This document shows positions 16,382-23,389 of a DNA stretch of 64,000 nt, in pieces. The notes beneath the pieces were generated by a model. It saw only the letters and a list, made by a program, of their open reading frames with translations, was not told the origin of the DNA and searched no databases. Position 1 is the stretch's first letter; each line of letters opens with the position of its first letter. The DNA is from Immundisolibacterales bacterium. Lineage in GTDB: Bacteria > Pseudomonadota > Gammaproteobacteria > HK1. The position numbers and the translations under genes are program-made. The stretch spans positions 1 through 64,000 of the forward strand of contig JAPOPW010000070.1 of the NCBI GenBank assembly GCA_026712715.1, given 5' to 3'.

Positions 16382-17728
16382 CTACCAGTCTTCCAGAGGA
16401 TAGCTCGAAATGAGCTCGTGCCCCGTCTCGGTGACGAGGGCCTGCTCCTCGAGCTTCACTCCGCACGAACCCCCTTCGGCCCCGACGTATGCCTCGACGC
16501 TCACCATCATTCCGGGCTCGAAGACGCCATCCCAGCCGGACCCCGCGTAGTCCTCGGGGTACTTGATGCTCGGATACTCGTCGCAGAGCCCCGTGCCGTG
16601 GGCGATGACCCCGTAGCGGCCGGCGCGGAAACGTTCGGGCAGCCGGTGGCTCTTCTCGGTCAGCTCCGCGAAGCCGAGGCCCGGGCGCAGCAGCTCGAGG
16701 TTGAAGGCGATGTGCCGGCGCGCGACCTCGTTCAGCTCGCGCTGCTCGTCGGTCGCCCGCCCCTCCCCGCAGATCCAGGTGCGCGAGACGTCGACGCAGT
16801 AACCGTACGGGCCGATGAGGTCCGTGTCGAACGCGACCGTGTCGCCTTCCTTCATCACCCGAGGCCCGCATTCCTGGAACCACGGATTCGTGCGCGGTCC
16901 GGAGGAGAGCAGCCGGGTCTCGATCCACTCCCCGCCCCTTCTCACGTTCTCTACGTGAAGGACCGCCCAGAGATCGTTCTCCGTCATGCCCGGACGCATC
17001 AGGCGCCGCATCTCGCGCATCGCGTTCTCGCAGGCGACCATGGCACAGCGCATGGCGTCGACCTCGTTCGCGTCCTTGATCTTGCGGGCGTGCTCGGTGA
17101 CGCGCTGTCCGTTCCGGATGTCGATCCCGAGCCGGTCGAACGCACGCACCCCGGCAATCTCCATCTTGTCGACCGCGAGGCGCCGGTTGCCCCCGCCGTG
17201 GGCGCGGAGCAGCTCGTCGATCTCGACCGCGAAGCGCCCGGCCATCTCTTCCGTGCGCTCCGCGGACGAGAAGTAGAAGAACGGTATCGCGGGCCGCACC
17301 TCGTCTACGAGCGGCAGGTGATCGGCGAGGTGCATGGCCTGGCGGTACTCGAAGAGGACGACCGGGCCCTCCGTTGCGATGAAACAGGCCCGCGACGAGT
17401 TGTGGGTGATCCAGACCTGCATGTTGGTCGTGTCGGTCGCGTAGCGGATGTTGAGCGGGTCGAAGAGGAGCAACCCCGCACAGTCGTTGCGCCGAAGCTC
17501 GCCCCGCAGCCGCTCGAGCCGGTACGCGCGCAACGCCTCGAGGTCCGGCGCCCGCACCCCGGCCTCCTCCCACTCCCGAAAGGCGAGCGGGGTCGGGCCG
17601 ATCTCGACCCGGTCGTCGTCGTCGGGAGTCCCGTCGGGCCGCCGCCTCGACGGGCGCGCGGACCCCACCCCCCCGACCGGTCGCCGGCCGGGACCAATCT
17701 TCGGATCCGGAACGGAGTAGCTGCTCAT
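16382..17728 (-). CDS. dddP: DddP-type dimethylsulfoniopropionate (DMSP) lyase, M24 fold
   Basis: A 448-residue M24 (creatinase/aminopeptidase-fold) protein. The N-terminal creatinase-like domain has DDRVEIGPTPLAF and FDPLNIRYATDTTNMQVW, which I recognise as DddP-like. In the catalytic domain Asp301, Asp303, Asp313, His377, Glu412 and Glu427 occur at exactly the spacing reported for the DddP iron ligands (295, 297, 307, 371, 406, 421). Asp383 and Tyr372 sit where the reported catalytic Asp377 and Tyr366 should be. DddP splits DMSP into dimethyl sulfide and acrylate in the cytoplasm. It is followed by a Gfo/Idh/MocA gene and preceded by a 3-hydroxyisobutyrate-dehydrogenase-like gene. A non-DMSP M24 enzyme remains possible, but the full residue set argues against it. 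Confidence 0.82.
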   Translation of the reverse strand: MSSYSVPDPKIGPGRRPVGGVGSARPSRRRPDGTPDDDDRVEIGPTPLAFREWEEAGVRAPDLEALRAYRLERLRGELRRNDCAGLLLFDPLNIRYATDTTNMQVWITHNSSRACFIATEGPVVLFEYRQAMHLADHLPLVDEVRPAIPFFYFSSAERTEEMAGRFAVEIDELLRAHGGGNRRLAVDKMEIAGVRAFDRLGIDIRNGQRVTEHARKIKDANEVDAMRCAMVACENAMREMRRLMRPGMTENDLWAVLHVENVRRGGEWIETRLLSSGPRTNPWFQECGPRVMKEGDTVAFDTDLIGPYGYCVDVSRTWICGEGRATDEQRELNEVARRHIAFNLELLRPGLGFAELTEKSHRLPERFRAGRYGVIAHGTGLCDEYPSIKYPEDYAGSGWDGVFEPGMMVSVEAYVGAEGGSCGVKLEEQALVTETGHELISSYPLEDW

Positions 17729-18949: not shown

Positions 18950-19492
18950 TCAGTCGATTCGGGGGGCGTTCTCCGGGTTGCCACCCGCCGGGCGGAGGGC
19001 GAGAAGGCGCTCCAGCGCGACCAGGGTATCGGGCGTGAGGGGCAAAATGCGGCCGGCACGGATCTCGTCCACGGTATGGAACGCCACGCTCTCCACCTCC
19101 TCGGGCTGAAGGGTGAACGGACCTTCGTGCCGGCAGGTGAACACCCGGCCGAAGCAGCGTACGCGCTCGTCCTCGTGGTAGAAGTCGAACTTCGGCTCGA
19201 GGGCCGTCCCGCGGATCCCGAGCTCCTCCGCCGCCTCCCGCTCCGCGCACTCCTCGTATGATTCGCCGGCCGCGACGCCCCCGCCCGCCGCGACGTCGTA
19301 CCAGCCCGGGCAGACGTCCTTGATTGCGGTGCGGCGCTGCACGAGCACCCGTCCCCGCCGGTCGAATACGAAGATATAGGTTGCCCGATGGGCGAGGTTC
19401 TCGCTGCGGACGCGGTGGCGCGGAAGCTCGGCGACCGGGCGGTTCTCGCCATCGACCACGGTGACGATTTCGTCGCTCGCAAGGGCCGGCAT
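18950..19492 (-). CDS. Nudix hydrolase, YfcD/IDI-like
   Basis: A 180-residue Nudix protein. It begins with VTVVDGENRPVAELPRHRV and continues through ATYIFVFDRRGRVLVQRR, the arrangement of the YfcD/isopentenyl-diphosphate-isomerase-like branch. The Nudix box reads GGGVAAGESYEECAEREAAEELG, with the full Glu and RE-EE core. Substrate class is unknown. ATG 19492 has GAGGAAG right before it. It lies 35 bases downstream of the chorismate mutase-methyltransferase gene, so it is probably co-transcribed. Confidence 0.82.
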   Translation of the reverse strand: MPALASDEIVTVVDGENRPVAELPRHRVRSENLAHRATYIFVFDRRGRVLVQRRTAIKDVCPGWYDVAAGGGVAAGESYEECAEREAAEELGIRGTALEPKFDFYHEDERVRCFGRVFTCRHEGPFTLQPEEVESVAFHTVDEIRAGRILPLTPDTLVALERLLALRPAGGNPENAPRID

Positions 19493-19527: not shown

Positions 19528-20658
19528 CTAGCCGTTCGGACGGGCGACGACGGCGATGATGCAGCTTCCCCGGTCGACGCCGGGGGCGGCAAGGTGGTCG
19601 TCGAGCTGCCGGCACGCGTCGTAGAGGGCGCGGGCACGGGGGCTCCTCGCGACGAACGCGGGGAGGATCGGCTGGAGCGTCGGATACGTCCCCGCGAGCC
19701 GGAACTCGAGACCCGCCGACTCGCAGGCGCGCCGCGCGCCGTCCACGGTCATCGCCCGCGCCCGGATGGTGTAGACGGACCCTCCCGACCACACCTCGAG
19801 CGTGTCGTTGTGGGGATTGAGATGCGAGTGGACGGTGGCCGGCCAGGGATAGAACCACTCGTTCACGAGGGCGTCCCGGTTGTACCAGGAAAGGACCGCG
19901 GTGCCGCCCGGGCGAAGCACCCGGGCGAGCTCGCGAGGAAGATCCGCGGCCAGCTCGGACGCGGCGCCGAAGTTCGCGACCGCGAACGACACGGTGCCGT
20001 CCCCGGCGGGAATGCCGTCGTCGAGGTCGCGGACCTCGAGCTCGACCCCCCCGCTCCAGTCGCGGCGCGCCCGCGCGTGCTCGATCATGGCCGGCGAGAT
20101 GTCGAACCCCCGCACCCGCTCGAACCTCGACTCCAGGAACTCCGCCACCTGACCGGTCGCGCAGCCGAGGTCGAGGGCGAGGGCCCGGTTTGGGGCCTCG
20201 CGGGCCGCCGACTCGATCGATTCGAGCTCCCGGTCGATGTAGGACGACACCGCGTCCGCCCCCTCGCCCCGCAGGTACGTGTCATAGCGCGGCGCTTCGA
20301 CCGCAGTGAGCTCGAGGAGCTGCTCGTGGAGCCGTTCGGGAGAAACCGGATTCGTGTCCAGGAAGGTGTCGCGGCCAAGCTCGTCGCACTCGATCTGCTT
20401 GGAATGCCAGATCATGAGCGAGACCAGCTCGGCCACGTAGTGGAAGTCGAGCCCGAGCACCCGGCACTGGATCTGCTTGCGCGCGAACATCGACGCCTCG
20501 CGGTCCGCGGATTGAAGGCTCACGCCCTTGGCCTCCTTGATTCGCGCCACCTCGCGCACCAGGCTCGCCCTGGTCGCGAGCCACTCGAGCATCTGCGTGT
20601 CGCCGAGGTCGAGACGGTCCCGGATCTCGTCGAGGGACATGAGGGGCTGTTCCGGCAT
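19528..20658 (-). CDS. Chorismate mutase (AroQ-type) fused to SAM methyltransferase
   Basis: A 376-residue two-domain protein. Residues ~9-92 are an all-helical AroQ chorismate mutase-like domain. Compared with E. coli numbering, Arg11, Arg28, Lys39, Arg51, Glu52 and Ser84 are present (here Arg13, Arg30, Lys41, Arg53, Glu54, Ser86), Asp48 is Ser and Gln88 is Glu. A linker leads to a class I SAM methyltransferase with motif I LDLGCATGQVAEF at ~residue 165, a GFDIS acidic loop and LARVLRPGG. The ATG has a strong AGGAGG. It lies 26 bases downstream of pyrF. An enzyme that makes and methylates a chorismate-derived acid is possible, as is a domain that only binds such a ligand. I know no characterised homologue. 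Confidence 0.75.
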   Translation of the reverse strand: MPEQPLMSLDEIRDRLDLGDTQMLEWLATRASLVREVARIKEAKGVSLQSADREASMFARKQIQCRVLGLDFHYVAELVSLMIWHSKQIECDELGRDTFLDTNPVSPERLHEQLLELTAVEAPRYDTYLRGEGADAVSSYIDRELESIESAAREAPNRALALDLGCATGQVAEFLESRFERVRGFDISPAMIEHARARRDWSGGVELEVRDLDDGIPAGDGTVSFAVANFGAASELAADLPRELARVLRPGGTAVLSWYNRDALVNEWFYPWPATVHSHLNPHNDTLEVWSGGSVYTIRARAMTVDGARRACESAGLEFRLAGTYPTLQPILPAFVARSPRARALYDACRQLDDHLAAPGVDRGSCIIAVVARPNG

Positions 20659-20684
20659 GCGCGCCTCCTGATGGTCGCTCTCGC

Positions 20685-21422
20685 TCAACCGGCGGCCGGC
20701 GGCCGCATCTGCGCTCCGCGGGCGATGTCGTCGACGATCCGCGCGACGGTCGCGGACGGGTCCGGGGCGTTTCGGATCGGCCTCCCCACCACCAGGTAGT
20801 CGGCGCCGTCCCGGGTCGCTTCCATCGGCGCGAGGGTGCGCTTGTGGTCGTCCGCACCCGCGCCCGCGGGACGAATCCCGGGGACCACCACCACGAACTC
20901 GCGGTCCGGAAACCCGGCCCGGATCCGCCCTACCGAGCTTCCGGACGCGATGAGTCCGTCGCAACCCGCGTCGAGGGCGGCGCGGGCGCTGGCGACCGCG
21001 TAGTCGTCGATATCGAGCCCCGGACCCTCGTTGACGCCGCGCACATCCGCCGTGTCGACGCTCGAGAGCGCCGTCACCATCAGAAGCCGCGGGCGCGCCC
21101 GGTCCGCCCGGCCGGTCCGCGCCGCCCGCACCGTGGCGGCCGTCCCCTGGAGGGTCAGGAACTCCACCTCCTCCTTCATGTTCGCCACGGCGGCCTGCAC
21201 CGTCGCGTCGATGTCGCCCACCTTGAGGTCGAGAAAGACCTTCTTGCCCCGTTCCCCGAGCTCGCGCACGAACGCGAACCCGGCTCCGATGAAGAGCTGC
21301 CAGCCGACCTTGTAGAAGGTCACGGCCCCGCCGAGCCGGTCGACGAGACGCCGGGCCGGATCGCGGCCGTCGAAGTCGAGGGCGACGATCAGCCGTTCGC
21401 CCGGATTCTCGAGTGCGCTCAT
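20685..21422 (-). CDS. pyrF: Orotidine 5'-phosphate decarboxylase
   Basis: A 245-residue OMP decarboxylase, which makes UMP in the last step of pyrimidine synthesis. The catalytic array is in VFLDLKVGDIDATV (the conserved Asp-x-Lys-x-x-Asp). The N-terminal LIVALDFDGR binds the base, and VVPGIRP and DYLVVGRPI close the phosphate site. The length is normal. It is the housekeeping member of an otherwise catabolic-looking minus-strand run, followed after 26 bases by the chorismate mutase-methyltransferase gene. Confidence 0.93.
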   Translation of the reverse strand: MSALENPGERLIVALDFDGRDPARRLVDRLGGAVTFYKVGWQLFIGAGFAFVRELGERGKKVFLDLKVGDIDATVQAAVANMKEEVEFLTLQGTAATVRAARTGRADRARPRLLMVTALSSVDTADVRGVNEGPGLDIDDYAVASARAALDAGCDGLIASGSSVGRIRAGFPDREFVVVVPGIRPAGAGADDHKRTLAPMEATRDGADYLVVGRPIRNAPDPSATVARIVDDIARGAQMRPPAAG

Positions 21423-21535: not shown

Positions 21536-22423
21536 TCAGGCGCGCCGGGCCGGCTCGCGCAACACGAGCGCGAGTCCGATGGCGACCTCGATGAGCCCAA
21601 CCACGAAGCTCTGGGACACCGTTTCGCCGAGGATCCAGGCGGCGAGCGCGGCCCCGGAAACGGGGGTGACGAAGCCGAGGCTGATCATCGTGCTCGGCCG
21701 GTAGCGTCGCAGCAGGTAGGCGATGACCATGAACCCCAGACCCGCGATGATCACCCCCTGGAAGAGGATGCCCGCGATGGGCCGCCATCCGATCGCATGC
21801 CACGCGATGGTCTCGGAGGCGAGCGCCCCGGCGAGGAACCAGGGCTGGGCAAGCACCATCTGCCAGAACGTGGCGCGGGCGGGGTCCGTCGCACGCATGA
21901 TCCGCGCCGACATCACGAGCCGGATGCCGAGCAGGGTCCCGCTCAGGAGCACGAGCCAGTTGCCGGTCGAGAAGACCTCGAGCTGTCCCGTCTCGGACTC
22001 GCCGAGGAGCACCGTCGCGGTACCGATGAACGCGGAGACGAGCCCGAGCGCCCGCACCGCGTCCAGCCGGTCGCCGGCGACCGCCCACGGCCCGAGAAGG
22101 GCCGCGACGAGCGGATACACCGAGATGAGCACCGAGCCCATGATCCCCGACGTCAGGCCGTAGCCGACGTTCATGATCCAGATCTGGACCCCGAAGAGGA
22201 TGCTGAGTCCGAGATAGGGCCTCCACTCGTCGGGAGTCGGAAACAGGCGGATGCCGGTCAGTCGCGCCCAGACCGCAACGCACGCGATCCCGAGGCAGAA
22301 GCGCAAGAAGGCGGTCCAGAGCGGCGGGAACGCTTCGAGCGAGAGCTTGACCGCGACCGGGTTTCCGCCCCATACGCAGTTCATCGCCACCGCGACGGCG
22401 ACCGCCATCCAGGGAATCGGCAC
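21536..22423 (-). CDS. DMT-superfamily (EamA) transporter
   Basis: A 295-residue integral membrane protein with about ten hydrophobic segments arranged as two EamA repeats. The first starts with NCVWGGNPVAVK and the second ends with GFVTPVSGAALAAWILGE. DMT permeases export amino acids, drugs or nucleotide sugars. The substrate cannot be predicted. GTG 22423 is the likely start. It is the first gene of the minus-strand run, 113 bases upstream of pyrF, and divergent from the FAH-family gene. Confidence 0.85.
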   Translation of the reverse strand: MPIPWMAVAVAVAMNCVWGGNPVAVKLSLEAFPPLWTAFLRFCLGIACVAVWARLTGIRLFPTPDEWRPYLGLSILFGVQIWIMNVGYGLTSGIMGSVLISVYPLVAALLGPWAVAGDRLDAVRALGLVSAFIGTATVLLGESETGQLEVFSTGNWLVLLSGTLLGIRLVMSARIMRATDPARATFWQMVLAQPWFLAGALASETIAWHAIGWRPIAGILFQGVIIAGLGFMVIAYLLRRYRPSTMISLGFVTPVSGAALAAWILGETVSQSFVVGLIEVAIGLALVLREPARRA

Positions 22424-22537: not shown

Positions 22538-23389
22538 ATGAAGCTGCTTCGTTTCGGCGAGCGGGGAAGCGAGAAGCCGGGGCTTCTCGACGCGAGCGGA
22601 ACCATTCGCGATCTTTCGGGGAGAATCGACGACATCGGACCGGAAGCGCTCGCTTCCGACTCGCTGGCCCGCCTTGCCGGCCTCGACCCGGCGTCGCTGC
22701 CGGCGGTCGATTCCGGCGTTCGGATCGGCCCGTGCGTCGCTGACGTGGGCAAGCTGCTGTGCATCGGCCTCAACTACTCCGATCACGCCGCGGAGACGGG
22801 CTCCCCGATCCCGAGCGAGCCCATCCTCTTCATGAAGGCTACCACCGCGATCGGCGGCCCGAACGACCCCGTGATCGCTCCGCGCGGCTCGACCAAGCTC
22901 GACTGGGAGGTGGAGCTCGGGATCGTGATCGGGCGCCGGGCGAGCTACGTCGAGGAGGACGAGGCGCTCGATCATGTGGCCGGCTATTGCGTGGTCAACG
23001 ACGTTTCGGAGCGCGAGTTCCAGATCGAGCGCCCGGGCGGACAGTGGACCAAGGGGAAGAGCTGCGACACGTTCGCGCCGATGGGGCCCTGGATGGTCAC
23101 CAGGGACGAGGTTCCCGACCCCCAGGTCCTTCCGCTCTGGCTGGAGGTGAACGGCCACCGCTTCCAGGACGGGAACACGTCGACGATGATCTTCGACGTG
23201 AAGACCATCGTCAGCTTCGCGAGCTGCTACATGACCCTCGAGCCGGGCGACGTCATCCCGACCGGCACCCCGCCCGGGGTGGGCGCAGGCCAGAAGCCCC
23301 AGCGCTTCCTGCAGGCGGGCGACGTGATGCGCCTCGGAGTGGGAGGCCTCGGCGAGCAGCGGCAGGAAGTCCGCGCCTGGCCGGGCTGA
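22538..23389 (+). CDS. Fumarylacetoacetate hydrolase-family protein
   Basis: A 283-residue FAH-family enzyme. The metal site is the usual E-x-E...D: DWEVELGIVIG with two Glu, then GYCVVNDVSERE with the Asp. KSCDTFAPMGPW and the GDVIPTGTPPGVG segment are family landmarks. Members hydrolyse or hydrate 2-oxo acids (for example ureidoglycolate lyase-like, acylpyruvase and 2,4-diketo-3-deoxy-L-fuconate/rhamnonate hydrolases). The last role would link to the rhamnose locus 23 kb away, but this is speculation. ACAGGAGAAC precedes the ATG. The 288-base gap downstream (23390-23677) contains nothing I recognise. Confidence 0.85.
   Translation: MKLLRFGERGSEKPGLLDASGTIRDLSGRIDDIGPEALASDSLARLAGLDPASLPAVDSGVRIGPCVADVGKLLCIGLNYSDHAAETGSPIPSEPILFMKATTAIGGPNDPVIAPRGSTKLDWEVELGIVIGRRASYVEEDEALDHVAGYCVVNDVSEREFQIERPGGQWTKGKSCDTFAPMGPWMVTRDEVPDPQVLPLWLEVNGHRFQDGNTSTMIFDVKTIVSFASCYMTLEPGDVIPTGTPPGVGAGQKPQRFLQAGDVMRLGVGGLGEQRQEVRAWPG

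Follow-up and report, generated by a model that had tools for sequence, protein, structure and literature searches.

In the window, by which we mean the whole 64,000-nucleotide stretch of DNA analyzed here, a minus-strand gene (positions 19528 to 20658, stop codon included) encodes a 376-amino-acid protein that joins an N-terminal AroQ-type chorismate mutase (CM) domain to a class I SAM methyltransferase. We put at about 70% the probability that this is a two-domain enzyme in which an active AroQ mutase, likely the only one in the cell, is combined with a methyltransferase that probably acts on a small molecule. Known fusions of chorismate mutase, an enzyme that works at a key branch point, pair it with other members of the same pathway. 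What is surprising in the present fusion is the methyltransferase partner, along with the fact that no second mutase was found. If this is indeed the sole mutase of the cell, as it seems, a methyltransferase attached to it would represent a new wiring of the chorismate branch point.

The reading frame is open from the ATG at 20658 to the stop codon at 19528 to 19530, and a ribosome-binding site, AGGAGG, can be read 5 nt ahead of the start codon (20664 to 20669, minus strand). Residues 12 to 90 (20389 to 20625, minus strand) form the AroQ domain, as assigned from Pfam, its active-site residues, and its low dN/dS, and match Pfam CM_2 with an E value of 1.2e-11 and 45.0 bits against a cut-off of 27, covering positions 1 to 79 of the 80 in the profile. 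A junction of 17 residues (residues 91 to 107; 20338 to 20388, minus strand) leads into the methyltransferase region (residues 108 to 376; 19531 to 20337, minus strand), which was delimited from Pfam, motifs, and a fold model and consists of a core (residues 151 to 262) followed by a distinctive C-terminal part (residues 263 to 376). Methyltransf_25 (residues 162 to 252, E value of 5.4e-15) and Methyltransf_11 (E value of 3.1e-14) both score above their cut-offs, with the methyltransferase matches spanning about residues 160 to 255. Because the chance of either domain match arising at random is negligible, the architecture is real. An earlier note, made from the sequence of the window, had proposed this fusion of an AroQ domain to a class I methyltransferase and had named the lack of a significant CM_2 match as grounds for giving it up; the profile search and the second species described below bear the proposal out.

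When 84,980 species genomes were scanned for shared peptide words, a method that detects close relatives only, one ortholog came up, 88% identical over residues 3 to 374, at a locus (L002) in an uncultured gammaproteobacterial genome (G002) assembled as a single 5.09-Mb contig. The junction is conserved and lies within a single open frame in both species, with residues 96 to 150 being 85.5% identical between them, which rules out a sequence artefact or the joining of two frames, the other worry raised at the outset. Both loci also share the gene order FAH-like, EamA, pyrF, and fusion. Directly upstream of the fusion gene, with a gap of 26 nt, lies pyrF for orotidine-5'-phosphate decarboxylase (20685 to 21422, minus strand; PF00215, E value of 1.1e-43; NF001273 above cut-off), preceded by an EamA-type transporter (21536 to 22423, minus strand; PF00892, E value of 4.7e-24) and by a divergent fumarylacetoacetate-hydrolase (FAH)-like gene (22538 to 23389, plus strand), named by sequence resemblance and with its start estimated from a homolog. 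Downstream, the two loci differ: the window has a YfcD-like Nudix hydrolase (18950 to 19492, minus strand; PF00293, E value of 3.9e-21; NF011922, 166.5 bits against a cut-off of 152), and L002 has a fragment resembling the C terminus of a DISARM or type IIG methylase. The suggestion that the fusion is coupled to both pyrF and the Nudix gene thus holds for pyrF, which is adjacent in both species, but not for the Nudix gene, which adjoins the fusion in the window only and was dropped as a candidate functional partner.

Beyond the genus, no fusion was found among 185 relatives searched by BLAST or among 398 genomes of the phylum and 369 of the class searched by profile, sets that overlap; altogether, the proteobacterial genomes sampled outside the genus, about 900 in number, lack it. 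No full-length match turned up on plasmids and no fusion on viral contigs, and DNA motif searches of viral contigs for further methyltransferase sequences yielded only weak relatives. On the question, raised in the earlier note, of how widespread the fusion and its context are, the searches find it in a second species with its pyrF context kept and in none of the other genomes sampled. A third member of the genus (G001), known from a fragmented assembly, has neither pyrF nor any CM_2 match, likely owing to an assembly gap, since the missing pyrF and fusion genes are neighbors in the other two species. The open-access full texts searched contain no chorismate mutase-methyltransferase fusion, in agreement with the earlier view that no characterized enzyme of this architecture is known. 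The fusion is a real, rare, and lineage-restricted joining of known domains.

The case for a working mutase begins with the gene content of the two genomes. The fusion is the sole CM_2 match in the genome of the window and in G002, with one match each, and none of the 17 genomes of the family has AroH (CM_1), which the same search does detect in controls such as Bacillus subtilis. The absence of a second mutase refers to these two profiles and to two genomes estimated to be about 97% complete; a mutase from another family could exist elsewhere in the genome. The prephenate dehydratase (PDT) of the genus stands alone without a CM domain, while eight other members of the family have a normal CM-PDT PheA. 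PDH (TyrA) was found in all genomes searched, and PDT and PDH are separate genes here; aroC is present, and aroA adjoins tyrA. With chorismate made and prephenate consumed, a mutase is needed, and the fusion gene is the only candidate. Because it is the sole detectable mutase, beside a PDT without a mutase domain and with aroC, aroA, and tyrA present, its mutase half most likely fills the housekeeping role in phenylalanine and tyrosine synthesis, a conclusion reached by elimination from profile searches of near-complete genomes.

The stand-alone PDT gene adjoins the series gyrA-serC-serA-tyrA-aroA-cmk-rpsA, in which the genes were mostly named by eye. At L106 (6645 to 17224, in G002) and L105 (in G000), the PDT gene sits upstream of gyrA, and the usual place of pheA, after serC, is taken by a PGDH-like serA; both loci represent a rearranged serC-tyrA-aroA-cmk-rpsA cluster. 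Other departures from the usual PheA occur in the family. In another genus (g2; L040, L042, and L044 to L046), a CM domain is followed by a region at the place of PDT without a PDT match, as checked for L040 and L046, and an intact PDT is located elsewhere; these proteins apparently derive from PheA by erosion of the dehydratase domain and have been retained for the mutase. Another odd sole CM, a protein of 236 amino acids whose C-terminal half matches CM_2 weakly (31 bits) and whose N-terminal half is unassigned, is encoded in G004 (L108, 5955 to 6662), which also has a mutase-free PDT.

The catalytic residues of the mutase half point the same way. In an alignment that included the Escherichia coli sequence, checked against PDB 1ecm, and the PheA proteins of relatives, equivalents of Arg11, Arg28, Lys39 (Lys41 in the fusion), Arg51, Glu52, and Ser84 (E. 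coli numbering) are present, with Glu at position 88 and, by ungapped counting back from Arg51-Glu52, Ser at position 48. These are the residues that the earlier note had listed, but the hint it drew from Ser48 and Glu88, namely, an altered activity or a mere ligand sensor, is not supported, as both positions are ordinary in active enzymes. Position 48 is Ala in the ortholog and Arg in PheA proteins of the same bacterial family. Glu88 is found also in the CM-PDT proteins of relatives (L035, L037, L041, and L043), and Glu occupies the corresponding site in active AroQ enzymes, as Glu109 of the exported mutase of Mycobacterium tuberculosis and Glu246 of the yeast enzyme (PMC7762937). In view of the relatives' PheA and this literature, the idea of a degenerate or noncatalytic mutase, drawn from the two positions, was rejected.

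Compared across the two species, the CM domain differs at 2 of 87 residues, with a Nei-Gojobori dN/dS of 0.024 against 0.18 for the methyltransferase region; the mutase half is under stronger constraint than the methyltransferase half. Among the NCBIfam models, those for TyrA-type and stand-alone mutases score higher on it (41 to 43 bits) than those for PheA-type mutases (23 to 27 bits), all of these scores lying below the equivalog cut-offs. PheA (P-protein) and TyrA (T-protein), in which an AroQ-alpha mutase is joined to PDT or PDH, are the obvious points of comparison. They share with the fusion the N-terminal position of the AroQ domain, the same catalytic residues, a second enzyme fused behind it, and, for the PheA of relatives, Glu88; they differ in that the partner here is a SAM methyltransferase rather than a prephenate-consuming PDT or PDH. 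The exported CM-CDT and CDT-CM proteins, with CM-CDT fusions known from nine species, are likewise extremely rare CM fusions limited to a few Proteobacteria, but they carry AroQ-gamma domains and their hosts also have a housekeeping CM-PDT (PMC10520331), whereas no mutase was found beside the present fusion, which begins directly with the AroQ domain and so leaves no room for a signal peptide.

In the methyltransferase half, SAM motif I, DLGCATG (residues 163 to 169), and the acidic Asp186 after β-2 are intact, and this half looks able to bind SAM. It fits no named family. All named NCBIfam methyltransferases score far below cut-off on the fusion, the best reaching 33 bits against 180, and membership in BioC, UbiE, UbiG, or Tam was rejected since their equivalog models are all below cut-off. 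The nearest solved sequences, CalS10 and METTL27, match the core only. Compared to class I small-molecule and N-methyltransferases in general (CalS10, METTL27, BioC, and the UbiE/YcgJ type), the fusion shares the SAM-binding core, at 25 to 40% identity over ∼100 to 180 residues, while its C-terminal 110 residues have no relative beyond the genus. These C-terminal residues are nevertheless better conserved between the two species (89% identity, dN/dS of 0.11) than the core (80%), which suggests that an acceptor site has been retained. A model of residues 108 to 376 built with eight sequences (pTM of 0.74, mean pLDDT of 69) is adequate for the fold only, being of low confidence in parts and weak in the C-terminal parts; the full-length model, with a pLDDT of 36, is unusable. 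Searched against the PDB, the model of the methyltransferase region broadly matches Rossmann class I methyltransferases, with E values down to 2.7e-12, and a Foldseek search of viral structures returned generic methyltransferases only.

Taken together, the fusion would be a cytosolic enzyme whose AroQ domain is predicted to convert chorismate to prephenate, which the separate mutase-free PDT and TyrA would turn into phenylalanine and tyrosine. The fusion would have taken over the mutase role after PheA lost its mutase domain in this genus. A small molecule is the most likely substrate of the C-terminal methyltransferase, whose SAM site is intact. By analogy with the intertwined dimers of AroQ-alpha domains, the AroQ domain probably doubles as a dimerization unit. 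That the protein also embodies some undescribed chemistry or control, either a methylated metabolite derived from chorismate or prephenate and made by coupling both active sites, or a mutual control linking the synthesis of aromatic amino acids with the SAM pool in an organism whose sole chorismate mutase is attached to a methyltransferase, we entertain only tentatively. The methyltransferase half, which fits no named family, offers a well-delimited target for experiments that seek a new substrate.

Whether the two halves work in sequence is a separate matter. Gene fusions often unite consecutive steps, and the conservation of the C-terminal methyltransferase region would suit a short pathway in which prephenate formed by the mutase, or a compound derived from prephenate or chorismate, is methylated by the second half. 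CM is also known in fusions with enzymes that use prephenate or precede it, namely, PDT, PDH, CDT, and DAHPS (PMC10520331 and PMC5526877). We nevertheless regard this arrangement as doubtful: apart from pyrF, no pathway genes adjoin the fusion, and no homolog with a known acceptor specificity was found. If the mutase serves phenylalanine and tyrosine synthesis, most of the prephenate must leave the protein, and channelling was not found in CM-CDT fusions (PMC10520331).

It is unlikely that the mutase half is a ligand-sensing domain through which chorismate or prephenate controls the methyltransferase. AroQ domains can be mainly regulatory, and the DAHP synthases of Listeria, Bacillus, and Geobacillus provide the precedent, their N-terminal CM domains binding chorismate or prephenate and regulating the attached enzyme (PMC5526877). 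The fusion resembles the Listeria and Bacillus proteins in that an AroQ domain at the N terminus precedes an enzyme unrelated to it, but Bacillus has AroH, whereas no other mutase was found in this genome, and this single-mutase argument favors catalysis here, as do the complete catalytic residues. The stronger conservation of the mutase half likewise opposes the sensor hint of the earlier note.

The reverse arrangement, in which the methyltransferase replaced an ACT domain and, with little or no methyltransferase activity, binds SAM or SAH to regulate the mutase, appears improbable. In its favor, control of AroQ mutases usually passes through a partner that is fused or bound to them (PMC10520331 and PMC7762937), and the methyltransferase core evolves faster than the mutase. 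The greater conservation of the acceptor-side C-terminal region relative to the SAM-binding core, however, fits acceptor selection, and the PDT of the genus appears, by eye, to keep a C-terminal ACT-like region of its own.

A mutase-CmoA fusion would be chemically sensible because prephenate and SAM are the substrates from which CmoA forms carboxy-SAM (PMC12783734), and the methyltransferase half shares with CmoA its fold and the DLGC and DxSPAMIE motifs, with CmoA entries (4gek, 4iwn, and 1im8) among the top structural rows (Z of 17.6 to 18.2, root mean square deviation of 2.8 to 3.0, ∼190 residues aligned). A CmoA-like carboxy-SAM synthase supplied with prephenate by the fused mutase is nonetheless very improbable, since those rows are tied with many ordinary methyltransferases, the genome search gave no TIGR00740 match at the fusion locus, neither CmoA nor CmoB scores above cut-off in the whole family, which leaves no known consumer of carboxy-SAM, and an equivalent of Arg199, the key CmoA residue that binds the carboxylate (PMC3663124), could not be placed in a region where the alignment is unreliable.

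Two observations concern the surroundings of the fusion gene. Just downstream of the ortholog, the methylase fragment at L002 (7167 to 7835) resembles the C terminus of DrmMI or a type IIG restriction methylase (PADLOC, E value of 5e-82) and adjoins a large helicase-like open reading frame; this region likely represents the remains of a defense island. In the window, positions 16382 to 17728 (minus strand) encode an M24-type protein whose score of 556 bits with the model for the DMSP lyase DddP comes near the cut-off of 600; it belongs to the gene neighborhood of the fusion and suggests marine DMSP use.
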